Assembly: GCA_002774365.1 (NCBI GenBank)
Contig: PEYM01000128.1
Location: 1 to 44,538, forward strand
From: Candidatus Saganbacteria bacterium CG08_land_8_20_14_0_20_45_16
GTDB taxonomy: Bacteria; Margulisbacteria; WOR-1; O2-12-FULL-45-9
Direction of reading: 5' to 3'
DNA length: 44,538 nucleotides
Numbering within the stretch: position 1 is the first letter of the stretch; every line of letters starts with the position of its first letter. Both the position numbers and the translations under genes were made by a program. A model generated the notes under the pieces. That model was not told the origin of the DNA. It did no database searches and saw only the letters and a list, made by a program, of their open reading frames with translations. Shown piece by piece: positions 31,458 to 44,419 of the stretch.

Positions 31458-34400
31458 ATGTCCCTTTATGTGAGATCTGAGAGATCCATGGTCCAGCCTC
31501 GCAGTCAGAAAGGTCAGGGTAGAAATAAGAATAAATTACAGCTTGCTAATCATAATTTGTGCCACAGACCCCTATCCAACAAAAAAAAAACAATAGTTAG
31601 GACACCCCTTGCAACAGATGCTCAAAAACTGCTTAAGGAACCTACAAGGCAAGCTTCCCCCAGTAGTGTGATCCCTCCTTTACTAATCAGTCTGGTCAGC
31701 GCATTGGTTATGGCTTACGCTGCCAGCTGTGCCCACACAGCCACCGTAGCTAATGAAAACACTCTCCCCGATAACTTGACCGGAGCAAAGATTGATTCAT
31801 TAGATGAATATTTTGACCTTAGTATTACTTGGCGAGACGGCAACCATAACGGTTTTATGGAGGACGGGGAAGTATCTCCGCTAACTTGGCAAATCGTTAG
31901 GGGGGTGGCAGAATTTCACAGTGAACAAGCTGGCCAGCTCCAATTATCAGGAACAGACCTGGCCCTCTTCAGAACCAACCTCAATGATGCAATGTCTCCC
32001 CAACCAACTCAACAATTTCATCGGCTGGTGCTGCCAAATGGTTTAATTCTTCTCTTGGGCGCAGATCATTCTTCCCCGCTGGTTTCCGTTGGCTTTTACG
32101 TTGGCGCAGGTTCACGCGATGCAACAATTGGGGGAGAAGCTCATTTAACAGAACATCTTCTGACCACTCGAAACCAAGGAGGTGTTGACTTTTTCGCGAT
32201 GATGGCCCAGCGTGGAACTTTTATAAATGCCCAAACAGGTTCCTTGGCCACCAGGTTTATGGGCATGACTAGAAGCAATAATTTAGCCGAGCCTGTTAAT
32301 TATTTTTCCCAGGCACTGCTACACCCTAGCTTGAGCCAAGCCAATCTTTCTTTGGAAAAAATGATTATAGCAAGAGAGGGCGAGGAAGCCCAAGCTGACC
32401 CTATCTTTGCTCTCCAAACAAGGCTTTTTGAAACCGCCTTCAGCAATCGCAGACGCCAACTTCTAGGCGACGATTTGCAGGCACTAAGCAGGGTCACTTT
32501 GGCTGATGTTCAAACCTTCCTGGCCCGACATTATTCGCCAACAAATACGATTGTTAGTATCACCGGTGATATTGAGCCAAGAGAGGCCCATCACCTCATT
32601 GAACAGAAACTAGCCTCCTGGCGCCCGACTCTGGTCACAACAACCACCCTGCCGGCTGAACCAGCTCAAAGCAAGTTGATTTTTCGCGTCCTCCCGGCTC
32701 AACCCGCCCAAGCTTCGTTTGTGGCGCTTGGCTATAAAACACCAACCGAAACCGAGCCCAACTATGCTGCCGTCCAGGTCGCTTTACATATTTTAAACAC
32801 TAGATTGAAAACCAGAGTTCCACAACTTAATCTCTTTGACCTCCCAAGGTCCGCAACCATTCCTTATGAAGCCTTCTTTTCCATTTTATCCGGAGCCGTT
32901 GCGTCAACCGGCATGAGTCAAACCCTTACCGATGTCCTGACCGAAGTCGAGGTCTTGCGCAGATACGGTGTCACCCCCGGAGAATTGCATCAGGCCCAGA
33001 TTGATCTACGGCTGAGTAAGCTTAGAGATCAAGAAGATATTGAAAGGGTCCAAGAAGAAATTGCTCGAGCTGAACTTTTAGCTACCCCAGAATTAAACCA
33101 ACGTCTGGACGAGCAAATAGCAGCTCTTACACCCAGAGAGGTCCAATCCGCCGCTGCTGCATATTTTGCTCAAGCAAACTGCACCATGGTTGTCCAGCCT
33201 CAAGCCGAAGCTGAAGAATCAGCAGGCCCAAACATCTCTGAAATACTCCAAAATGTTGGGAGTAATCTCGCCAATATAACCCCTACTCCAAGAACTACCG
33301 AGCCACCCCATAACGAAAGTTTACCTCCATTGCCCACTCCAACCAAAATCGAAGTCTCTCACCCAGAAGAACTGTTCCTACCTAATGGTATTAAGCTGGC
33401 TTTCCAGAGAAACAATCGACTGCCGTTGGTTACTTTTGACATCATGTTTCCAACAGGCGGCAGTGAATTCACGCAAGATGAAGTCACCCTAGCTTTGCAA
33501 TCTATGTTGGCTGGCAACAATGGGACTTCAATCAACGATGAGATCGCGGCTTTTGGCGGCAGAGCCAAGGTTGAGGTTTTAGAGGACGTTGCCCATGTGA
33601 CGGTAGAAGTCTTGTCTGATAAGCTTCTTCCTGCCGTTGATTTAATGACCTCTGCTTTAACCAAATCAACGATAAGCACTAATAACCTGGAACAGCTAAG
33701 AGAAGCACATCTCAGTAAACTAATGGGAGACCTAGAGGATCCGCGCGCTAACGGGCTCCGTATTCTTAGAGGCTTGCTCAAATCGCCTAATTTGCCGCCA
33801 GATCCAGCTGGTCTACGGCAAAAGGAAGGGATCGACCAATTAACACCTGAAGACTTAAGAGGCTGTCAGGACAAATTAGTTCGAAGTGGACTGGTCTTTT
33901 CGGTTGTGGGTGACATTGCTGGGCCTCAGATCGAACATATCAAGAGACAACTTAAAACACTCACAATTCGCCAAGCAACAACTACAGAACCAACATCTAC
34001 CGCCCCGATCAACAAGGCCGTCCTTAGACTCCCTGCCCCAATTCCCGTTGCTGGCGCCTTGATTGGGTTTAATACCCTTGGTTCTGCTGATCCTGATTAC
34101 CCTGCCCTAAAAGTCTTGTCCTCGATCCTAGCCCGGCGCCTTTCGGTAGCAGTTAGGGAAGAAAAGGGATTAGCTTATTACATTACTTTTAAGGATGAAA
34201 CAGCTGTCCAGTCAGGCTTTGCTTACGCCGCTGTCCAAACCAGTCCAGAAAACCTTGAAGAAGTTTTAGCCCTGATCAATGAAGAAATCAATCGTTTGCA
34301 TACAAGCAGCGAGGGTGACGACATTATCAACGCTGAAGAGGTCGCCCAATTGATTCGGCTGCTCTCCACCAGGGAAGCAATCTTTACCCAAACCAATAGT

Positions 34401-34568
34401 GCCAGAGCCACAAATTTGGCCCAAGCGGTCTTAGCTGGTAGCGTAGCTGACAGTAATCTGAGTGCCAGATTTAGCAAGGTAACAGTTGCCGACGTGCGCC
34501 GCTTAGCCCAAAGATTGCTGGACCCAGAACATAGCGCTTCGCTGATTATTGAGCCAATGCAGCCTTAA
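31458..34568 (+). CDS. Membrane-anchored M16-family zinc peptidase, two-domain
   Basis: A 1036-residue protein. A 70-residue basic N-terminal tail precedes one hydrophobic segment (residues 72-90) ending AASC, possibly a lipidated Cys91, so the bulk should lie outside the inner membrane. DGNHNGFMEDGE (residues 127-138) fits an EF-hand calcium loop. The first M16 half has the inverted zinc motif HLTEH (229-233) and a distal Glu near residue 307. A second M16 half begins near residue 640 (LFLPNGIKLAFQRNN) and lacks HxxEH, as expected of the non-catalytic partner half. Related proteins degrade or process peptides (PqqL, pitrilysin; PqqF/PqqG in PQQ maturation). The start has AAAAGGAG at good spacing. 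Its 3' end overlaps idi by four bases. Confidence 0.88.
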   Translation: MSLYVRSERSMVQPRSQKGQGRNKNKLQLANHNLCHRPLSNKKKTIVRTPLATDAQKLLKEPTRQASPSSVIPPLLISLVSALVMAYAASCAHTATVANENTLPDNLTGAKIDSLDEYFDLSITWRDGNHNGFMEDGEVSPLTWQIVRGVAEFHSEQAGQLQLSGTDLALFRTNLNDAMSPQPTQQFHRLVLPNGLILLLGADHSSPLVSVGFYVGAGSRDATIGGEAHLTEHLLTTRNQGGVDFFAMMAQRGTFINAQTGSLATRFMGMTRSNNLAEPVNYFSQALLHPSLSQANLSLEKMIIAREGEEAQADPIFALQTRLFETAFSNRRRQLLGDDLQALSRVTLADVQTFLARHYSPTNTIVSITGDIEPREAHHLIEQKLASWRPTLVTTTTLPAEPAQSKLIFRVLPAQPAQASFVALGYKTPTETEPNYAAVQVALHILNTRLKTRVPQLNLFDLPRSATIPYEAFFSILSGAVASTGMSQTLTDVLTEVEVLRRYGVTPGELHQAQIDLRLSKLRDQEDIERVQEEIARAELLATPELNQRLDEQIAALTPREVQSAAAAYFAQANCTMVVQPQAEAEESAGPNISEILQNVGSNLANITPTPRTTEPPHNESLPPLPTPTKIEVSHPEELFLPNGIKLAFQRNNRLPLVTFDIMFPTGGSEFTQDEVTLALQSMLAGNNGTSINDEIAAFGGRAKVEVLEDVAHVTVEVLSDKLLPAVDLMTSALTKSTISTNNLEQLREAHLSKLMGDLEDPRANGLRILRGLLKSPNLPPDPAGLRQKEGIDQLTPEDLRGCQDKLVRSGLVFSVVGDIAGPQIEHIKRQLKTLTIRQATTTEPTSTAPINKAVLRLPAPIPVAGALIGFNTLGSADPDYPALKVLSSILARRLSVAVREEKGLAYYITFKDETAVQSGFAYAAVQTSPENLEEVLALINEEINRLHTSSEGDDIINAEEVAQLIRLLSTREAIFTQTNSARATNLAQAVLAGSVADSNLSARFSKVTVADVRRLAQRLLDPEHSASLIIEPMQP

Positions 34569-35207: not shown

Positions 35208-37589
35208 ATGCGTGTCCTGCTCTTGGCGCCTATCTGGTCATACACCCAAAGGTATCTGCCGGTCAATTTAGCCGAATTAGCTGGTTTTATCAGAGACCAT
35301 GGCTACAAAGATGTCCAGATCCTTGACCTAAATGATGAGGTCTTTGATATTATCTCCCCGGAAAAAAAATTCGAGGCAGCCAAACAATTAGTACTTAAAG
35401 CCAAACCTGATATTATTGGAATAAGCTGCCAGACCATCAATGTCCCTTTTTGCCTAAAATTTAGCCAATTGCTCAAGGCCAGCCGAGACGTACCAATAGT
35501 TTTGGGAGGCATTCACCCTTCATTCAGGGCTAAGGAAATGTTTGCCCTGTGTCAAATCGACTACATCGTTAGAGGCGAGGGCGAAGTTACCCTGTTGGAA
35601 TTACTTGACTGTCTTACCAAAAAGCCGGCGCACAAAAGTTTAAACCAGATCCTAGGACTATCTTATAAACAAGGCCACCAAATTCATCACAACCCTGATC
35701 GCCCATTGATCAAAGACCTTGCCGACTTAGCCCCCCCAGCCTATGACTTATTAAAAGCAATGAGTCCCTCAAAAAATAAAAGCCTAAGCGCTTTTCAGCG
35801 CCTTTTTCGCCAAACTCCAACAACGGAAATTGTTGGTAGCGTAATCGCCAGTCGAGGCTGTCCTTACCGCTGTCTTTTCTGTTCATCAAACCACTTCTGG
35901 AGATACCAAAGAAGGAAACCGATCAAGAACATCATCAAGGAAATTAAATATCAAAAGCAACATTTGGAAACAAATAAATTCATGTTTGAAGATGATTGCC
36001 TCACCCTTAATCGCCAATGGTCCGCAGAATTATTTAAAGCCCTAAAAGAATTACGAGTAAGGTGGGGCTGCCTGACAAGAATTGACCTGATCGAGACCGC
36101 AACCATCAAGGCTATGAAAGCAGCTGGCTGCACCTCGATTTACCACGGAATTGAGGCCGGCAATAATAAAATGCGAAAGGTTCTAGACAAAAAAAATAAC
36201 CCCAAGCTAGACAACAATCTCATTATTAAGCTGGTCAAGGAAGAGGTCCGTCATAAGATTAAACCAACTTGCTCTTTTATGGTTGGCATTCCCAGCGAAA
36301 CCAAGAAAGATTTTGCTGACACAGTCAACCTGGCCTTCCAACTCAAGCAGATTGGAGCAGAAATTCAACTCTGGATAATGACCCCATATCCTGATACACC
36401 CGCCATTAGGATCTTTAAACATCAGCTCAGAAAAATGGACCGTTGGGTCACCTTGCGGCAAGGCGACGTTTTTATCGATGAGCAAATACTGCTTTTTCAC
36501 GACATTCTTGACCAGATGCCAGAGGAAAATCCCGATAATTATATCTTTATGCCAGACATGGGCCTGGCTCAATTTCTGAATCAATACGAGAAAGCCCTAG
36601 CACACCTTGGGCTAGGTCAATCATATCTAAAGGTCAAAGGTTGTTTTATCTACAACTATTTTTCTTGCAACGACCAAAAGATTCATTTTGTTTCCTTCCA
36701 GAAAAAAGAACCAATAAACCAATTAGCGGCATCACCAAAAACGATCTTGCTCAAGATAGAAATCGATAGGTCAGACCTAATCAAACTAGCCAACAAACTA
36801 ATCACAAACAAGATTCGCGCCTGCTTTTTGTCCGTGTCCTGCCCTCAGCGTCACGCCTCAACAAATCAACGCCAGGCTTTTGCTCAGTTCCTTTGCCAGC
36901 TCATTGTGCACAAAATTGATTTCACACTAACTAAGCCTCTGCCCCCTACAATTATCGACGGCAACTTAAAGCCGCTTTTAAAACAAGCTATTTTTTGCCC
37001 AACGAGTTGCCAAGATTGTCTAGAATTATTCAGAGTTAGCAACGACAAAGTCCATCTTTGTGGCGGGCAAGAGATCGGCCGAGTTTGTGTTTTTCAGAGC
37101 CGTCGACAACTTTTTGAGCTTTTTAAGTCCGCTCACCAAGACCCTAAAAACCAGCAGGTCCTTTCTTGCTGTCAGTTCCCTGATCCGCGGCCGCAAAAAC
37201 AACTCTCCCTATCCTTAAGAGCTGGTTATACCATCCCCCCTGATGCTGAACTGGCCAAAATTGTCAAAAAAACACCTATCAGCCAACTGCTGAACAGCAA
37301 AAACCAGAAAGGTCGTTTCCAAAACCTGCTCTTTCTCCCTACCCTGAATGAGCTTCAACCGAACCTTTCTGCTCCAGCACAGCAAAGCCACATTGTTTTC
37401 CTAAAATCAAGCGAGGAGATCCATTTATTAGACAATGCTGCCGTAGGATTACTAAAACATCTATCACAAAGTGGACAAGCCAAAGATTTGGTAACCGGCC
37501 TTTATCCCAAACAAGGCAAACTAATAATAAACAAGCTGAAAGAATTAGTGGCGTGGGGCATCATCATCGATCCAAGATCAAACCGCTAA
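35208..37589 (+). CDS. B12-binding-type radical SAM enzyme with Cys-rich and PqqD-like C-terminus
   Basis: A 793-residue protein. The N-terminal cobalamin-binding-type domain (residues 1-140) has VLGGIHPSF and VRGEGEVTLLELL. The radical SAM core carries GCPYRCLFC (Cys 218, 222, 225), a GIEAGN segment and MVGIPSETKKDF. After the core comes a Cys-rich stretch (FCPTSCQDCLEL, HLCGGQEIGRVC, LSCCQF; roughly residues 610-665) that might bind an extra Fe-S cluster. The last 70 residues (IVFLKSSEEIHLLDNAAVGL, LINKLKELVAWGIII) resemble the PqqD/RRE winged helix that binds precursor peptides. The classical cobalamin His motif DxHxxG is not seen. It converges on the SPASM gene with a 12-base overlap and probably belongs to the same peptide-modification system. 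Confidence 0.85.
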   Translation: MRVLLLAPIWSYTQRYLPVNLAELAGFIRDHGYKDVQILDLNDEVFDIISPEKKFEAAKQLVLKAKPDIIGISCQTINVPFCLKFSQLLKASRDVPIVLGGIHPSFRAKEMFALCQIDYIVRGEGEVTLLELLDCLTKKPAHKSLNQILGLSYKQGHQIHHNPDRPLIKDLADLAPPAYDLLKAMSPSKNKSLSAFQRLFRQTPTTEIVGSVIASRGCPYRCLFCSSNHFWRYQRRKPIKNIIKEIKYQKQHLETNKFMFEDDCLTLNRQWSAELFKALKELRVRWGCLTRIDLIETATIKAMKAAGCTSIYHGIEAGNNKMRKVLDKKNNPKLDNNLIIKLVKEEVRHKIKPTCSFMVGIPSETKKDFADTVNLAFQLKQIGAEIQLWIMTPYPDTPAIRIFKHQLRKMDRWVTLRQGDVFIDEQILLFHDILDQMPEENPDNYIFMPDMGLAQFLNQYEKALAHLGLGQSYLKVKGCFIYNYFSCNDQKIHFVSFQKKEPINQLAASPKTILLKIEIDRSDLIKLANKLITNKIRACFLSVSCPQRHASTNQRQAFAQFLCQLIVHKIDFTLTKPLPPTIIDGNLKPLLKQAIFCPTSCQDCLELFRVSNDKVHLCGGQEIGRVCVFQSRRQLFELFKSAHQDPKNQQVLSCCQFPDPRPQKQLSLSLRAGYTIPPDAELAKIVKKTPISQLLNSKNQKGRFQNLLFLPTLNELQPNLSAPAQQSHIVFLKSSEEIHLLDNAAVGLLKHLSQSGQAKDLVTGLYPKQGKLIINKLKELVAWGIIIDPRSNR

Positions 37590-38861
37590 TTTAACGCCTT
37601 CTTTGCGTAGCATCTCCCTAGCCAGGTTGGGACACTCTCTGAACAACCGCCGAAAAAAATAAATTTCTATCTGGAACTGCTTAAGCAATAATTCACACAA
37701 AGGATCAGGCAATCTCTCTGCCTGAAAACAATGGCCACTACAAGAGCGGTGACAGTAAAGGCTGATGGGGCAGCGCACACACTTTCCCTTTAGCTGGGTT
37801 TTCCGCTCAATAAAACCAACAAACTCTTTTACTGCCTTGACATCACAGCCGCCTACAACCTCTCCAACTTGAAATTTATTTAATCCGGCCGCAATAACAC
37901 AGGGATATATTTCTCCATTCACAGCTATCGCTAAATAATTCTGCCCGCCACCAGCGCATAAGGCTGTCGTGCCTGCCCCGATAAAAAGATATTTACGCAA
38001 AGCACCAAGTAGGGGCATAACAAAAACCGCCGTACCACGCTTAAGCTCATCAAGGTAAAAATCACAAAAAGCCAGATAATTTTTGGCCCAGAGCTTGACA
38101 TCAATTTTTAAAGTCTCTCCCAAACGATAAACTGGATACGAAAATGACTGCATCCACATAAAACTAAAATTGAGTGAAACCAAGTTTTTGTAAGCCTCAA
38201 TAAAACGATAAGGATAAGCGATCATTGGGTGAGCACTTCTGGAAATACCAACCCGATCGATATATTTTAAGTTATTAACCACTTTGTGCCACGACCCACA
38301 GCGATCCCTGTCATGCTCAAATTTATTTCCATCGATACTGATCTGATAATCTTTATCCTTGAAGCGGGAAAATTTCTCCAGCAGTTTCCGGTCAATAATC
38401 GTACCATTGGAATAAATCACCAAGGAAAATCTGTTTTTTTGCTTTTTATTAAGTTGCCAAAGACGATCCAAGAAAAATTCTAACACCAGCGGATTCAGTA
38501 GTGGTTCCCCGCCGTAAAAAGCCAGCTCAATCTTACGTCTATCATCAGACAAGATTGATTTTTTAAGATATTTCCAAATTCCTTGGGCCGTAACCAAACT
38601 CATATCCTCTTTTTTGCATTGACTGTTCCAACAGTAACTACAACGCAAATTGCAACGAGTCGTTAAAAATATCGTAACAGTAGTGTGGCTATCAGGGCCG
38701 GTTTTTTTCCGTCCCACGCCCTCCCCCGACAAAAAATCCAAAAGTTGCGGCTCCAGACCTTGCCTCTGGCGGCCAAAATCCCAACGACCACTCGCTGGTA
38801 AATACTTAAAATGCAAACCATTAATCGCAAATTCACATTTTTTAAAGCTCTTTTTAACCAT
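37578..38861 (-). CDS. Radical SAM/SPASM peptide maturase
   Basis: A 427-residue enzyme. The radical SAM motif is TTRCNLRCSYCW (Cys 70, 74, 77), followed by LAFYGGEPLLNP (SAM-binding GGE), SNGT and QISIDG. The C-terminal SPASM region has CAGGGQNYLAIAVNGEIYPC (302-321) and KCVRCPISLYCHRSC with a later Cys-x3-Cys (361-378), enough ligands for two auxiliary [4Fe-4S] clusters. SPASM enzymes of this layout modify ribosomal peptides (thioether, C-C bond, epimer or decarboxylation) or activate sulfatases. No sulfatase gene is present, whereas a peptide gene is, so peptide maturation is favoured. Its ATG overlaps the stop of the preceding gene (TAATG). It is last in the six-gene operon. Confidence 0.88.
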   Translation of the reverse strand: MVKKSFKKCEFAINGLHFKYLPASGRWDFGRQRQGLEPQLLDFLSGEGVGRKKTGPDSHTTVTIFLTTRCNLRCSYCWNSQCKKEDMSLVTAQGIWKYLKKSILSDDRRKIELAFYGGEPLLNPLVLEFFLDRLWQLNKKQKNRFSLVIYSNGTIIDRKLLEKFSRFKDKDYQISIDGNKFEHDRDRCGSWHKVVNNLKYIDRVGISRSAHPMIAYPYRFIEAYKNLVSLNFSFMWMQSFSYPVYRLGETLKIDVKLWAKNYLAFCDFYLDELKRGTAVFVMPLLGALRKYLFIGAGTTALCAGGGQNYLAIAVNGEIYPCVIAAGLNKFQVGEVVGGCDVKAVKEFVGFIERKTQLKGKCVRCPISLYCHRSCSGHCFQAERLPDPLCELLLKQFQIEIYFFRRLFRECPNLAREMLRKEGVKLAV

Positions 38862-40615
38862 TATTTACTTATCTCCAAAACGTGATGTCGCAACAATTTA
38901 CACAGCGCGGCCGTTACCGCTTGCTTTAAAAGAAGAAACTGGACTGATTGACCAGGCAACCTCTTTAAGATGTCCGCGACTGTGGTCCCCTCGCCAACCA
39001 ATTCTAATACTTTTGAGTCTATTTCATCAAGTTCACACTTTACTCCATGTACCTGGTTAGTAGCCAAATAACTAGTTCGAAGTTCAAGGCCTTTTCCCGC
39101 AACGGCCAAAAATTCCTTGATGGAACAGTCCCTTGAAAATCGTAGTCGCGTCTCTAGCCTCAGGGCAGACGGCTTAACATCAGCCAGCGGGATTTTCTGC
39201 TGGTGACAACGGGTGATCTCAAGCAAATTCTGCGCAGAGAGCGTCAGGGACCGAAATCCCATCTGCTCCTCAACACCGATCTTCCCCAGGTCCTTAACTT
39301 TGGCCATGCGCTTAGAATAGTTGCAAAAATCTTGCAAGCCATGCCTAAGCACTTTGACCTTGTACTTTCCCGGCCGCTGATAAAAGTCAGCCCCTGGCTC
39401 TATCTCAGGAAAATAGATCATCGGCGTAGTAAAAGGATAGTTCTGGGCAATCTGCTCCTTCAGGGCAAATGTTTGCTCCACTTCCTTAGCAGTTTCAAAA
39501 GGTGTCCCCATAAAAAAGTAAACCATGGTAGCAAGCGATTTGTCTTTTAGAAAATCAAGCGCCCCAAAAAGTTCGCTGTTAGAAAAATAAAAGCCCTTGG
39601 TTAATTTTCTAACCCTCTCCGACCCAACGTCCGGCGAAATTATCAAAATAGAGTTCGGCAAAAAAGTTTCCCTGAACTTCTTTATAAAGTCCTTGCTGGG
39701 CAGAGCCCAGGAGGCAAAATTACCCAAGACCTTGATCTTGGACCTTTTTATCTCCGCAAAAAGATCGTCATAGTAACCTGCGTTCGGTTCCGGATCATAG
39801 TCCATAAAAACATTGTTTATCCCGTATTTTATGATCCGTTTTATATCTGCGACAACTTTGCGGGGAGAGCGAAAAACATGGCAATTTCTGTTACTGATCA
39901 GTTTCTGCGCCCGCTTACCACCACCGCAATAAAAACAATTGACACTACAACCCCGGCCGGGACAAAGCATAAACGTTTTAACATCTTTCACAAAATTACA
40001 ATTAGACGAATAAGAATAACCTGTTTCCGTTAGGCGCGTTAATAGATCAAAATGCCGCATTAGATCACAGCAGCTAAAATTCAAATCATCAAGATCTTTT
40101 TGCGTGGCAACATAGGTCAATTTGTTTTTAACTACGCTTCCCCCGCTGCGCCAGACTAAGTTGGGGACACCCCCTAAATTTTTTGGCTTACTCAAGCAAA
40201 GATTTTTTACTAAAGAGAGGAGTGGAATCTCTCCCTCACCACAAATAATGAAATCGATTTGCTTCTGACCCTGCATTAGCTGCCGAGCAAAGTAGCTGGC
40301 AGTGAAGCCACCGACAACAATTTTTGTTTGGGGAACGCGCTTCTTCAAGGATTTTATTACACAAAGTGTATCCCAAAGCTGGTAATGCCAATGGATGGCA
40401 AAGCAAACCACGTCAAACCCATTTTGATCTACTTCCTTAGCCAGATCAAAGTCAGGACCTAAGATCTTTTCCAGCCCCAGATGTATAATTTGGGCATCAA
40501 AACCATGCCGATTAAGAAGCTCAGCCATGGCAAAATAACCGATCGGCGGCAAACCAATTGAGAACGTCTGTTTTCGAAAATGAGGCACATGAACAAACAA
40601 AACCTTAAGCCCCAT
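38861..40615 (-). CDS. B12-binding-type radical SAM enzyme with PqqD-like tail
   Basis: About 584 residues from the ATG at 40615, chosen because GAAGGAG lies six bases upstream; in-frame ATGs further up (40636, 40630) lack such a site. The N-terminal Rossmann-like domain (VLFVHVPHF, IVVGGFTASYFA, IICGEGEIPLL) is of the cobalamin-binding type. The radical SAM motif is GRGCSVNCFYC (Cys 223, 227, 230), later YFFMGTPFETAKEV. The last 60 residues (ELDEIDSKVLELVGEGTTVADI, ALCKLLRHHVLEI) have the helix pattern of a PqqD-like recognition domain. Enzymes of this class include peptide C-methyltransferases and other C-C-bond chemists. It overlaps the upstream gene by 11 bases. Confidence 0.85.
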   Translation of the reverse strand: MGLKVLFVHVPHFRKQTFSIGLPPIGYFAMAELLNRHGFDAQIIHLGLEKILGPDFDLAKEVDQNGFDVVCFAIHWHYQLWDTLCVIKSLKKRVPQTKIVVGGFTASYFARQLMQGQKQIDFIICGEGEIPLLSLVKNLCLSKPKNLGGVPNLVWRSGGSVVKNKLTYVATQKDLDDLNFSCCDLMRHFDLLTRLTETGYSYSSNCNFVKDVKTFMLCPGRGCSVNCFYCGGGKRAQKLISNRNCHVFRSPRKVVADIKRIIKYGINNVFMDYDPEPNAGYYDDLFAEIKRSKIKVLGNFASWALPSKDFIKKFRETFLPNSILIISPDVGSERVRKLTKGFYFSNSELFGALDFLKDKSLATMVYFFMGTPFETAKEVEQTFALKEQIAQNYPFTTPMIYFPEIEPGADFYQRPGKYKVKVLRHGLQDFCNYSKRMAKVKDLGKIGVEEQMGFRSLTLSAQNLLEITRCHQQKIPLADVKPSALRLETRLRFSRDCSIKEFLAVAGKGLELRTSYLATNQVHGVKCELDEIDSKVLELVGEGTTVADILKRLPGQSVQFLLLKQAVTAALCKLLRHHVLEISK

Positions 40616-42233
40616 TGTTATCTCCTTCATAAGCAATCAAAAATGCTTCAATCTTACTTGGCTTGTTATGGCGAACAAGGGCAATGGCAAAATCAAGAAA
40701 AAGGACGCTTTGCTTCTTTACCCCACCCCGCAGAAAGACCCCTTTGCACCCTTTTCGTGCTAGCCATGATCGCCAAGCAAAACAAAGCCATAAAGGGGCC
40801 TTCTCAAGCGTTTGGCTTAAAGACAAAAGGGTTTGCGGAAACATATAAATCAAAGGGAAAAAATAGAGCTTCATTTCATAATACTCTTCAAGACTCAGGT
40901 CCCTTGTTCGATAATTATAAAAACAAGAAAAAATCTCTTTCTCTTGAGCGATAAGTTTGGCCTCTCGGGCAGTCAAATAAGCATAATGCGTCTTGAGGTA
41001 TTGGCGACACAGAACAAGCTTATTTTTTTCACTCTGCCACAAGGCCGTGTCCCAATACGGCTCGAGCAAACTAATCTCAACCTGGCAACCCTGGGCCGCT
41101 AGTTGGAGCGACAAGCTCAAGGTTTGGTCCGCTTCTGCCTTGGTCTCATTCGGAAATCCCATTATAAAAGAGGCCAAGCAAAGCATTCCAGCCTTCAGCA
41201 CCATATCAATGGTTTTTTGTGCTCGTTTAAGATCAAGCCGTTTATTGATTTGCTTTAACAGCCTGGGGGAGGCACTTTCCAACCCAACAAAAATACCTGT
41301 ACAGCCAGCCGCAGCCAAGCGCTCAATAAGTTTCTTATCCAACAGATCGACCCGAGCGTAGCACCGCCAAGTCACCGGCAACCTCTTTTTTGAAAAAAGC
41401 TCACAAAAAGACTCGATCCTTTTCCGGTCAGCCATAAATTGGTCATGATTAAAAATAAAATCAGTAATATGATATTTCTGATATAAGTGTTTCATCTCTC
41501 TATAAATTCTTGACGGGGTCTTCTGCCTAACCAAACCACCCCAAAATTTTGAGCTCGAACAATAGGCACACTTAAAACCACAGCCGCGACCCACGTCAAG
41601 ATGAGAGCTATGCCCCCGACCGGCCCGGTCCGGCTGATAACTTGCTAAAGCAGGGATCAAAGAAAAATTAGGCATCGGCAGAGCATCAATGTCTGCGACA
41701 AAAGCTCTGGGAGGAGTGAAAAATGGTCGCCCACCCTTGCGCAGCGCCAGGCCAGAAACCGACTCAAGAGACTTATCTCCATCTAGTGCCCTGATAAGCT
41801 CGATCACGGTACTCTCGCCTTCTCCCAACACAATGATATCAATAAACTTAAAACTCAAAAGCAATTGCCTGGCAGTCAAGGTTGCCTGCACCCCGCCAAA
41901 AATAATATTGCTTTCCGGATTCAGTCGTTTTATTTCTTTGGCCAGGTTAACAGCAAAAGGCAAACCCTTGTCCATGCTCAAGAAAAGAAAGTTCTTTAAT
42001 TGCTTATTACCAAGAATCTTCTGGGCAATCTGCCGATGGACACCAGGTCGTCTAAAATTAATTTTTCTTTCAAAAACACTTAACTGTAAGTCATTAACAA
42101 TAAATTTTATACCGGCTTGATCAAGTAGCGTGGCCAGATGAACCAAGACCAAAGGGAGAAAACAACCACCCCAATCCACAGAACCATACGGGATATTTAT
42201 CAAACAAGTATTTACAGGCTCGTGACAATGCAT
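40605..42233 (-). CDS. B12-binding-type radical SAM enzyme
   Basis: A 542-residue enzyme. The N-terminal cobalamin-type domain spans residues 1-150 (IIFGGVQATLTARQLL, IVLGEGESTVIELI). The radical SAM motif is GRGCGFKCAYC (Cys 218, 222, 225), with RCYARVDLLD, GIFVGLESASPRLL and SFIMGFPNETKAEAD downstream as in the wider MiaB/BchE-like class. The helical C-terminus shows no PqqD-like pattern, unlike its two homologues here. The start overlaps the upstream U32-like gene by 22 bases, which implies coupling. Its reaction is not evident; methylation or another radical C-H modification of the cluster peptide is plausible. Confidence 0.87.
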   Translation of the reverse strand: MHCHEPVNTCLINIPYGSVDWGGCFLPLVLVHLATLLDQAGIKFIVNDLQLSVFERKINFRRPGVHRQIAQKILGNKQLKNFLFLSMDKGLPFAVNLAKEIKRLNPESNIIFGGVQATLTARQLLLSFKFIDIIVLGEGESTVIELIRALDGDKSLESVSGLALRKGGRPFFTPPRAFVADIDALPMPNFSLIPALASYQPDRAGRGHSSHLDVGRGCGFKCAYCSSSKFWGGLVRQKTPSRIYREMKHLYQKYHITDFIFNHDQFMADRKRIESFCELFSKKRLPVTWRCYARVDLLDKKLIERLAAAGCTGIFVGLESASPRLLKQINKRLDLKRAQKTIDMVLKAGMLCLASFIMGFPNETKAEADQTLSLSLQLAAQGCQVEISLLEPYWDTALWQSEKNKLVLCRQYLKTHYAYLTAREAKLIAQEKEIFSCFYNYRTRDLSLEEYYEMKLYFFPLIYMFPQTLLSLSQTLEKAPLWLCFAWRSWLARKGCKGVFLRGGVKKQSVLFLDFAIALVRHNKPSKIEAFLIAYEGDNNGA

Positions 42234-43030
42234 CGGCTAAAAATCCCCAGCCCCTTTGGCATTTCATCATTCTCATAATAAATCCCCTTGCCCAACTGAT
42301 CGCAAGAAGTAGCCTTTAAACCCGCCGGGCCTGAGATTTCTCGCTGCACAAAATAATCCAGACACGATCTTTGGCAGCCGCCAAGACTAGGTCCAGCCTT
42401 TGTTGTACTTGAATAAATACATTCACGTGACAAGCTCGCCACAACATGAGGATAATAAAGATGCAGCTGGACCCCCATCAAGTCGCCAGTAGCGGCTAAC
42501 CCTTGCCGCACATTATCATACTCAATCGCCACTATCCTTTTTGCCTTAAGAAAGCCCAGCCAGCGCTGGTCATCAACCATTGACCCCCTTAAAATACGGA
42601 GCAACCAAGGAGGAAGCTTTTTATAATCTACGCGGGGATCTCGTTCTCTTTTGTTTAAAAGTCGGCCCAAAATTAGCACTAGATTGTCATACTCCTGAGC
42701 CAGGGACAAAACACCCCAATCATTAATGACCACTTCCACTTTCCGTTTGCCCCCCGCCAGAAAACCTAATAGTTTCCTAATTTTACCAACCTCAAACTCG
42801 CTCACCATAGCTGGAATAACAAAGGTAAAGCCGTAACCGGCTTCTTGGACCTGATTGATATGTCGTTCTAACTGAGACAAAGTTGGCAGCAATCTCACAC
42901 AAGATTCTGCCCCTAAATATACCCGCCCCAGTTTCCGACCAAAATGTAGGGTCTGCCTTAACTGGCGCAACTTCACAAGAGCCTCCTTGGGCGAGGCCTT
43001 AGGGATTAAATTAAAAACTGCGTATTCCAT
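42212..43030 (-). CDS. Divergent U32-family protein, UbiV-like
   Basis: A 272-residue soluble protein. VEVVINDWGVLSLAQEYDNL and LVLILGRLLNKRERDPR match the U32-family barrel segment found in UbiV/YhbV-type proteins ('NDxG.L', 'GRxLN'). Cys at residues 44, 204, 219 and 223 reproduce the spacing style of the [4Fe-4S] ligands of E. coli UbiV (one early Cys, then C-x12-C-x3-C; here C-x14-C-x3-C). UbiV works with UbiU in O2-independent ubiquinone hydroxylation. Paired with the next gene, this protein could form an analogous heterodimer. The start has only a weak ribosome site. It lies 12 bases after the UbiU-like gene. Confidence 0.7.
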   Translation of the reverse strand: MEYAVFNLIPKASPKEALVKLRQLRQTLHFGRKLGRVYLGAESCVRLLPTLSQLERHINQVQEAGYGFTFVIPAMVSEFEVGKIRKLLGFLAGGKRKVEVVINDWGVLSLAQEYDNLVLILGRLLNKRERDPRVDYKKLPPWLLRILRGSMVDDQRWLGFLKAKRIVAIEYDNVRQGLAATGDLMGVQLHLYYPHVVASLSRECIYSSTTKAGPSLGGCQRSCLDYFVQREISGPAGLKATSCDQLGKGIYYENDEMPKGLGIFSRCIVTSL

Positions 43031-43042
43031 TATTTTTAACTT

Positions 43043-44059
43043 CTAATAGTAACAAAAATATTTGGCCGCGCAAGTCTCCCTACCCTTCTGGCCAAACGTT
43101 GCTTCGTATTTTTTGACAATCTCTTTCCGCGTAAAATTTCCATCTGCGATCATGCGCGCCAAAGCAACCATTTTTAATTTTAGGCTGAAGGCCCTGCCCC
43201 GACTGACAATCTTGAGATACCTTACCCCAGCAGCCTTCAATTTTTTAACATAACACAAGCCACAATCAACCAAAATGTTGTTCTGGTCAATCGGCTCCCC
43301 TTTCAACCGAAAGGCAAAGTTAAACCTATTTCTTTTTTGATATTCAACATAACTAGTATAAGCCTTGTTCAAAAAGGCCAAAGAGTGTGGCTCGGCCAAT
43401 GAAATGGAAAAATTAGCTTCTAGCAGCTCAGAACACAAATTTCTATTTAGGCCAGAGTACTTATCCCAAAAAACATCTCCATGCCCAGCAAAACAATGCG
43501 CTCCAACAAAAGGGCACTTCTCATTCAAAATAAAAGCCTCATACTCATATTGTGGGAATTTTTTTGCTATGGCCGCTATTTCGCTAACCGCTAAGTGGCG
43601 TTGAATTGTAATCCTCTTAATATTTTTTATAGCTCCAAGCAAAGCAAGAGAGTAACTGTTAAAAACTCCAAACTCACCGCTTAAAATTACAGGAACATTG
43701 GGCTTCAGCTCAGCCAGTAAAAGCAACAGCCCAGGATCAGCAATTATTAACCCGCTCGGCCCAAGTGAAAGCACCTTCAAAATAACTCTCTTTATTTCAG
43801 GCATAAGCCTCTGGGGATAATACAAAGAATTAAAAACCACCCAGATCTGTCGGTGAAATTTCTTCGCCAATGCAATCGCTTCGCTCAAATGTTTATAGCT
43901 TAAAAAATTTGAGCCAGCATTTTCCCGACGGCTCAAAAACGAACAAGCATATTTCTTTCGCCAAGTCGAAGGGATTACACCACAATAAAACTCATCTGCT
44001 CCGACTTTGACTAACTGGGCTATCTCGCTGGCCTCATTTATTCCAACACATATTTTCAT
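43043..44059 (-). CDS. U32-family protein, UbiU-like
   Basis: A 338-residue soluble protein. The N-terminal VKVGADEFYCGVIP matches the U32 opening 'GADAVYxG'. SRRENAGSNF and VVFNSLYYPQR are also in family positions. Cys 182, 189, 209 and 266 (or 269) give C-x6-C-x19-C-x56-C, close to the UbiU [4Fe-4S] pattern C169-x6-C176-x16-C193-x38-C232. Older annotation calls such proteins 'peptidase U32', but the better-studied members are Fe-S hydroxylase subunits for ubiquinone or tRNA/rRNA modification, the latter using prephenate. Here the pair is in an operon with radical SAM peptide enzymes. It is the first gene after the attenuator that follows the peptide gene. Confidence 0.82.
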   Translation of the reverse strand: MKICVGINEASEIAQLVKVGADEFYCGVIPSTWRKKYACSFLSRRENAGSNFLSYKHLSEAIALAKKFHRQIWVVFNSLYYPQRLMPEIKRVILKVLSLGPSGLIIADPGLLLLLAELKPNVPVILSGEFGVFNSYSLALLGAIKNIKRITIQRHLAVSEIAAIAKKFPQYEYEAFILNEKCPFVGAHCFAGHGDVFWDKYSGLNRNLCSELLEANFSISLAEPHSLAFLNKAYTSYVEYQKRNRFNFAFRLKGEPIDQNNILVDCGLCYVKKLKAAGVRYLKIVSRGRAFSLKLKMVALARMIADGNFTRKEIVKKYEATFGQKGRETCAAKYFCYY

Positions 44060-44125
44060 ACAAAGCCTTGATTCGCCTATAAAATTTTGGACCGCATTTT
44101 CAGAAATTTTTCGCTTAAATAATAC

Positions 44126-44168
44126 CTAAAAACAAGTAGCTTCCATCTACTTTCGAGATGGAAGCTAC
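44126..44168 (-). terminator. Terminator/attenuator after the peptide gene
   Basis: A perfect 13-base-pair stem (44136-44148 with 44156-44168) and a seven-base loop. On the minus strand it is followed by TTGTTTTTAGG. Placed 20 bases after the peptide stop and 67 bases before the UbiU-like gene, it would end most transcripts and let a fraction read into the enzyme genes. Confidence 0.88.
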
Positions 44169-44188
44169 TATAAGTCTACTACCAATAA

Positions 44189-44368
44189 CTATCTGGCTAC
44201 ATCCCGGCCCCCTGAAGAGCTATGGTATCCATAACCCCAACTAGCGGCAGCAACCCCTGGCTTTTTAGTTTCGGCTAATTTTGCGACAGATTGATCTGCT
44301 CTAACGATCCTGCCTAAAGCATCAGCAATTTTCACTTTATCTTTCAAAGTCATTTTCTTTTTTGCCAT
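44189..44368 (-). CDS. Candidate RiPP precursor peptide
   Basis: A 59-residue peptide starting at ATG 44368. AAGGAGGTGA, a near-perfect Shine-Dalgarno, sits five bases upstream, the strongest in the window. Residues 1-36 are a charged, helix-prone leader (MTLKDKVKIADALGRIV, ADQSVAKLAETKK). After KKPGVAAA the tail is SWGYGYHSSSGGRDVAR, rich in Gly, Ser, Tyr and with Trp and His; this would be the core. There is no signal peptide and no Cys, so thioether chemistry is excluded. A consensus promoter precedes it and an attenuator follows. Context with four radical SAM enzymes and a U32 pair supports the call. No similar peptide family is known to me. Confidence 0.78.
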   Translation of the reverse strand: MAKKKMTLKDKVKIADALGRIVRADQSVAKLAETKKPGVAAASWGYGYHSSSGGRDVAR

Positions 44369-44390
44369 CAATATCACCTCCTTGGATTAA

Positions 44391-44419
44391 ATAGTAACAA
44401 AAACAGTATATCTTGTCAA
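44391..44419 (-). promoter_or_regulatory. Strong promoter of the peptide operon
   Basis: Minus strand consensus TTGACA at 44419-44414, 17-base spacer, TACTAT at 44396-44391 preceded by TGT. Transcription starts near 44384, just at the ribosome binding site. Confidence 0.75.

Follow-up and report, generated by a model that had tools for sequence, protein, structure and literature searches.

The window analysed here comprises all 44,538 nucleotides of contig PEYM01000128.1 (assembly GCA_002774365.1), which belongs to a 1.78 Mb genome in 148 contigs of Candidatus Saganbacteria bacterium CG08_land_8_20_14_0_20_45_16, a member of Candidatus Margulisiibacteriota. Near the end of the window, a minus-strand operon was found to encode, in this order, a 59-aa candidate precursor peptide, two U32-type proteins (U32A and U32B), two B12-binding radical S-adenosylmethionine (SAM) proteins (B12a and B12b) and a SPASM-type radical SAM protein (Table 1). 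An initial annotation, made from the sequence alone, had proposed this operon as a new system for a ribosomally synthesized and post-translationally modified peptide (RiPP), and all six minus-strand frames that it listed were present where it had placed them. Its description of the operon as tightly overlapping held for the four enzyme junctions, with a 12-nt gap between U32A and U32B and overlaps at U32B/B12a, B12a/B12b and B12b/SPASM. It did not hold for the peptide gene, which was not overlapped: some 130 nt lie between this gene and U32A, and they contain a 14-bp hairpin and a T-run. The upper limit of the range given in the initial annotation, 44419, coincides with the start of a promoter match.

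Table 1. Features of the operon and of the convergent gene beside it, in window positions.
Feature	Position	Strand	Basis or remark
Sigma-70-type promoter match TTGACA-17-TACTAT, 5' of the peptide	44391..44419	-	10/12 matches, extended TG; consensus match only
Shine-Dalgarno sequence AAGGAGGTGAT	44373..44383	-	Sequence; near-perfect
Candidate precursor peptide, 59 aa	44189..44368 (codons 44192-44368, stop 44189)	-	Open reading frame and expression signals
14-bp attenuator/terminator-like hairpin with a TGTTTTT tail, located between the precursor gene and the enzyme genes	44135..44169	-	Folding and sequence
U32A, UbiU/TrhP-like U32 protein, 338 aa	43043..44059	-	PF01136, 2.7e-21
U32B, divergent UbiV-like partner, 272 aa	42212..43030	-	Weak profile homology, cysteines, gene pairing
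B12a, B12-binding radical SAM protein, 542 aa, CX3CX2C at 218	40605..42233	-	B12-binding and Radical_SAM; best family ApyD
B12b, B12-binding radical SAM protein, 591 aa, CX3CX2C at 230	38861..40636	-	B12-binding and Radical_SAM; TIGR04190-like
SPASM-type radical SAM protein, 427 aa, CX3CX2C at 70	37578..38861	-	Radical_SAM and sub-threshold SPASM match
Third B12 radical SAM protein, 793 aa, convergent on the operon	35208..37589	+	May be an extra member

The sequence of the peptide is MAKKKMTLKDKVKIADALGRIVRADQSVAKLAETKKPGVAAASWGYGYHSSSGGRDVAR, and both the length and the lack of cysteine described in the initial annotation were borne out. The peptide contains 13 Lys/Arg residues (pI 10.2), and its aromatic residues and sole histidine (Trp44, Tyr46, Tyr48 and His49) all lie within residues 44-49 (WGYGYH). 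No family model in Pfam or NCBIfam matched it. When the 479-nt stretch was subjected to dinucleotide shuffling, an open reading frame (ORF) of at least 59 codons with a strong Shine-Dalgarno (SD) sequence was found in 38 of 5000 shuffles; ORFs of this length were common when the SD requirement was dropped, occurring in 27% of the shuffles. The hairpin region gave a z of -2.66 for the whole 141 nt. Length alone was not significant, whereas length together with the SD sequence was, and the peptide was considered credible because of the SD sequence, the promoter and the terminator-like hairpin. RiPP clusters have a short precursor gene that carries translation signals and adjoins the genes of the modifying enzymes, and such an arrangement was found here. 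A precursor gene in first position, with attenuated read-through into the enzyme genes, is a common layout of RiPP operons. The hairpin behind the peptide gene would stop most transcripts, leaving the peptide in excess over the enzymes.

Among the U32 proteins, U32A was closest to the models of TrhP (55.8 bits) and UbiU (49.3 bits, cut-off 440). U32B matched no Pfam or NCBIfam model, and its predicted structure (predicted local distance difference test score, pLDDT, 53.5) had no meaningful PDB match; its family profile aligned with the U32A profile in hhalign (E 7e-7, probability 92%). The cluster ligands of UbiU/UbiV are conserved cysteines (PMC6747719). C44, C204, C219 and C223 of U32B align with UbiV C39, C180, C193 and C197, and these positions were kept in 39 to 42 of the 42 family sequences, giving U32B all four UbiV positions of the four-cysteine Fe-S motif. 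U32A has the first two UbiU positions (C182 and C189, aligned with UbiU C169 and C176) and other conserved cysteines, of which the C-terminal C266, C269, C330 and C336 were found in 38 of 41 U32A sequences and are lacking in UbiU and TrhP. On the basis of the weak profile homology, the four cluster cysteines and the gene pairing, U32B was taken as the U32-type partner of U32A. The UbiU/UbiV-like pair of the initial annotation was thus confirmed for U32A by PF01136 and its nearest models, and U32B is UbiV-like by cysteine pattern and pairing only.

UbiU/UbiV, which form an O2-independent ubiquinone hydroxylase pair and with TrhP and RlhA represent the U32 oxidases, resemble the window pair in their tandem arrangement, similar sizes and retained cluster cysteines. 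However, assignment to UbiU/UbiV proper was rejected, as U32A scored far below the UbiU cut-off, U32B was not recognised as UbiV, and the operon holds radical SAM and peptide genes instead of ubi genes. Synthesis of a hydroxylated small molecule or quinone, as by UbiU/UbiV and unrelated to the radical SAM neighbours, is very improbable: UbiU and TrhP are indeed the closest characterised relatives of the pair, but 49 of 440 bits for UbiU, the absence of ubiquinone genes nearby and the overlap of the U32 coding frame with a radical SAM gene led us to reject a quinone pathway on the tested features. U32 oxidases carry out O2-independent hydroxylation, with prephenate as the oxygen source in ubiquinone synthesis, their direct chemistry being unproven (PMC11574389). 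Prephenate dehydratase (PF00800) is encoded in the genome, so prephenate is presumably made, which is consistent with a prephenate pool.

The two B12 enzymes and the SPASM enzyme named in the initial annotation were verified by their domains. B12a scored best for ApyD (235.5 bits, far below the 750-bit cut-off), followed by BchE (158.2 bits), unlike the B12 enzymes of glycan-type clusters used as a control (n=8), which scored best for HpnJ or BchE. ApyD C-beta-methylates Tyr to beta-methyl-Tyr in a GYLYD motif (PMC11117315). The SPASM enzyme scored best for PapB (135 bits, well below the PapB cut-off), followed by TIGR04084, geopeptide, nif11 and SCIFF, and its best solved-structure match was 5wgg, a radical SAM domain protein that we take to be the SCIFF maturase CteB. 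The SPASM and ApyD-like enzymes thus represent peptide-modifying families, all scores being below equivalog cut-offs.

Collectively, we consider it reasonably probable that the operon is the RiPP pathway of an anaerobe, in which the U32 pair hydroxylates the peptide or otherwise oxidises it without O2. The product would very probably be a heavily modified peptide natural product. A RiPP pathway was the best-supported explanation because of the expression signals of the peptide, the RiPP-maturase type of the SPASM enzyme, the ApyD-like B12a and the finding, independent of this operon, of related U32 pairs beside precursors in Omnitrophota. We infer the peptide to be the substrate; the reactions and their sites are proposed as follows. 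The basic N-terminal part would act as the leader, and the core would be the C-terminal WGYGYH-SSSGG region. The SPASM enzyme probably cross-links residues of the aromatic stretch through a C-C or C-O bond, since thioether chemistry is not possible in a peptide without cysteine. B12a probably C-methylates a core residue, for which the analogy with ApyD makes Tyr the first guess; B12b would methylate a second site. U32A and U32B would form a heterodimer with one [4Fe-4S] cluster per subunit that hydroxylates the peptide, or performs an equivalent O2-free oxidation, with prephenate as the likely oxygen source, as in known U32 oxidases.

The U32 family was first named for peptidases (peptidase U32), and the operon shows no leader protease, which a RiPP pathway requires; moreover, no U32 peptide hydroxylation has been shown in the literature found. 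These points favour a RiPP pathway whose U32 pair serves in leader proteolysis or, by way of its Fe-S clusters, in an oxidation of another kind, for example dehydrogenation or cross-linking. We judged this unlikely, because conserved clusters of four cysteines characterise the Fe-S U32 oxidases (PMC6747719, PMC11574389) and the two-subunit design matches the UbiU/UbiV heterodimer.

Relatives of the pair were sought with U32B profile or query searches in the phylum itself, in 384 genomes of Omnitrophota and in 246 of Nitrospirota. U32B relatives were detected in one further genome of the phylum (G065), 28/384 Omnitrophota and 5/246 Nitrospirota, nearly always with U32A adjoining. Plasmids gave distant, uninformative matches only, and viral contigs gave none. 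At about ten Omnitrophota loci, the relatives lay beside RiPP precursors. Some of these loci were SynChlorMet (Scm)-type cassettes, with a KFxPxI...LNPEQAVLxCxC leader/core border, SPASM enzymes and varying sets of HprK-like, PqqD and NTP_transf_5 genes; KFxPxITRIKLNPEQAVLxCxC precursors were found at L055, L057, L069, L070, L075 and L083, and near L054. Other RiPP-like loci (L060, L062 and L080) had different Cys- or Gly-rich precursor-like ORFs. The one at L080 (4516-4821, +), ending HANTHANHCSHNSHSQGGWC, lies among four radical SAM genes near the U32 pair. A third type of surroundings combined several HpnJ/BchE-like B12 radical SAM genes with glycosyltransferase, PMT, Wzy or DegT genes, and no precursor was seen at the Nitrospirota loci or in G065.

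The initial annotation had suggested looking for the peptide-U32-U32-radical SAM order in related genomes. This order did not recur in the phylum, and the complete set of parts (precursor, SPASM, U32 pair and two B12 radical SAM enzymes) was found again at Omnitrophota L070. There, one strand carries a precursor, SPASM, U32A, U32B, an HprK-like gene, a B12 radical SAM, a radical SAM, a second B12 radical SAM and a methyltransferase gene, and both B12 enzymes best matched a RiPP C-methyltransferase family, below its cut-off. The precursor and U32B profiles matched in the same genome in 11/384 cases against 1.9 expected (p 1.5e-7), and in 5 against 1.2 expected (p 0.004) after removal of the six genomes on which the precursor profile had been built, in counts that ignore shared descent. 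A further 15 precursor-bearing genomes had no detected U32 pair, suggesting that the pair is an optional tailoring module rather than a core part. In Margulisiibacteriota, genome G046 (contigs C49 and C32) encodes several Scm-type precursor-like peptides, with no detected U32B.

In both U32 trees, the pairs of SynChlorMet-type cassettes formed one clade with L060, L062 and two unassigned rows. The window pair was sister to G065 with strong support and long branches. Specificity of the U32 pair for RiPPs was dropped as an explanation, given its presence in envelope-glycan clusters and in the precursor-less Nitrospirota loci. The relatives in envelope-glycan clusters suggest that the pair is a reusable oxidation module. 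The caveat in the initial annotation, that the enzymes might group outside peptide clades, was therefore borne out in part, with U32 relatives both beside RiPP precursors and in envelope-glycan clusters. At Omnitrophota L058, L061, L063, L064, L066, L067, L073 and L076, many B12 radical SAM genes accompany the U32 pair, with glycosyltransferase or O-antigen genes where checked. These clusters appear to represent an uncharacterised envelope-glycan or lipid pathway, which may also use O2-free hydroxylation.

The same clusters bear on whether the substrate of the window enzymes could be something other than a peptide, for example an envelope lipid or glycan precursor, with the small ORF being unrelated, such as a small basic protein whose own transcript ends at the hairpin. 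The U32-pair relatives occur there with 2-6 B12 radical SAM genes, glycosyltransferases, PMT-type transferases, O-antigen ligase and DegT aminotransferase. The pair in the window lies no closer to the RiPP clade, and the hairpin makes the peptide gene its own transcription unit. However, the operon has no such glycan genes, the B12 and SPASM enzymes of glycan clusters are of HpnJ/BchE and MoaA/PqqE type rather than ApyD- and PapB-like, most of these clusters lack an SD-preceded small ORF, and the window peptide resembles a leader with a core. A non-peptide substrate was thus regarded as improbable.

Several results nevertheless weigh against the RiPP pathway with an oxidising U32 pair. The peptide had no credible relative in 74 genomes of the phylum and none stood beside the nearest U32 pair (G065, locus L006), so the conservation next to homologous enzymes anticipated in the initial annotation was absent; few relatives were available for this test, and conservation is usual support for a RiPP rather than a strict definition. 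Weak peptide matches in other Margulisiibacteriota (E 0.03 and worse) were discarded, the three best lying inside larger unrelated genes. Both trees placed the window U32 pair, like that of L080, outside the RiPP clade. The window pair scored equally against RiPP-type and glycan-type profiles, and the UbiV identity of U32B was not statistically supported by sequence profile. The SPASM enzyme had no relative within the phylum, and in Omnitrophota only generic proteins of about 30% identity to it were found. No leader-binding, protease or exporter gene was seen in the operon, in part since no more than 170 nt of the contig lie upstream of the peptide. The operon also has no RRE/PqqD gene, a leader-binding domain that is common in RiPP clusters and not universal; the C-terminal extension of B12b gave a weak PqqD-like match with a low-confidence model (pLDDT 44). 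The RiPP system of the initial annotation was supported in part, its peptide being an orphan and its U32 pair not exclusive to RiPPs.

No described RiPP class combining these parts was found in the literature searched, in agreement with the initial annotation. A search for U32 proteins associated with RiPPs returned nothing relevant, subscription journals being mostly out of reach. B12a is nearest to ApyD of the aminopyruvatide pathway, and the GYGY core of the window peptide may be compared with GYLYD of ApyA; in contrast to that pathway, the operon lacks MNIO, P450 and methyltransferase genes, and B12a lacks the C-terminal part of ApyD. Membership was rejected because the MNIO enzyme, which defines the class (PMC11117315), was not among the six operon genes. 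The window SPASM enzyme shares its radical SAM/SPASM architecture with the ranthipeptide/SCIFF maturases PapB and CteB, its best family and structure matches, but a PapB-type ranthipeptide was rejected for lack of cysteine in the peptide. SynChlorMet cassettes (PqqD, HprK-like, SPASM), for which no paper using the name was found, carry homologous U32 pairs beside clear precursors in Omnitrophota. The operon differs from them in lacking HprK, PqqD and NTP_transf_5 genes, in its unrelated, Cys-free precursor and in the position of its U32 pair in the trees; membership was rejected, as the precursor profile was also unmatched in the genome of the window.

Outside the operon, the third B12 radical SAM gene, to which the initial annotation does not refer, overlaps the end of the SPASM gene by 12 nt, and ApyD and BchE are about equal as its best families. 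An M16 metallopeptidase, a member of the family to which the PQQ protease PqqF belongs, is encoded at 31458-34568 (+), about 3 kb from the operon end. A second RiPP-like cassette of the same genome (contig C16, locus L107, 5586-9755, -) encodes a PqqD/RRE protein, two radical SAM/SPASM proteins, an NTP_transf_5-like protein and, by eye, an S24/S26-type peptidase. Its PqqD gene could serve the operon in trans.

What would be new here is the use, in a probable RiPP pathway, of a tailoring pair that the literature searched does not describe for RiPPs. The U32 oxidases known so far act on quinones and RNA, which they hydroxylate without O2 through a mechanism that is not yet understood. We regard the chances as evenly balanced that UbiU/UbiV-like heterodimers are a portable module for O2-independent peptide oxidation, recruited more than once into RiPP pathways (the Scm-type and other cassettes of Omnitrophota and the Margulisiibacteriota operon), with peptides as a new class of U32 substrate beside quinones and RNA. 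If true, a soluble, genetically encoded substrate that can be followed by mass spectrometry would make U32 chemistry directly testable. O2-free hydroxylation would then join the RiPP toolbox, and anaerobes of uncultured phyla would have a route to chemistry usually done by oxygenases.

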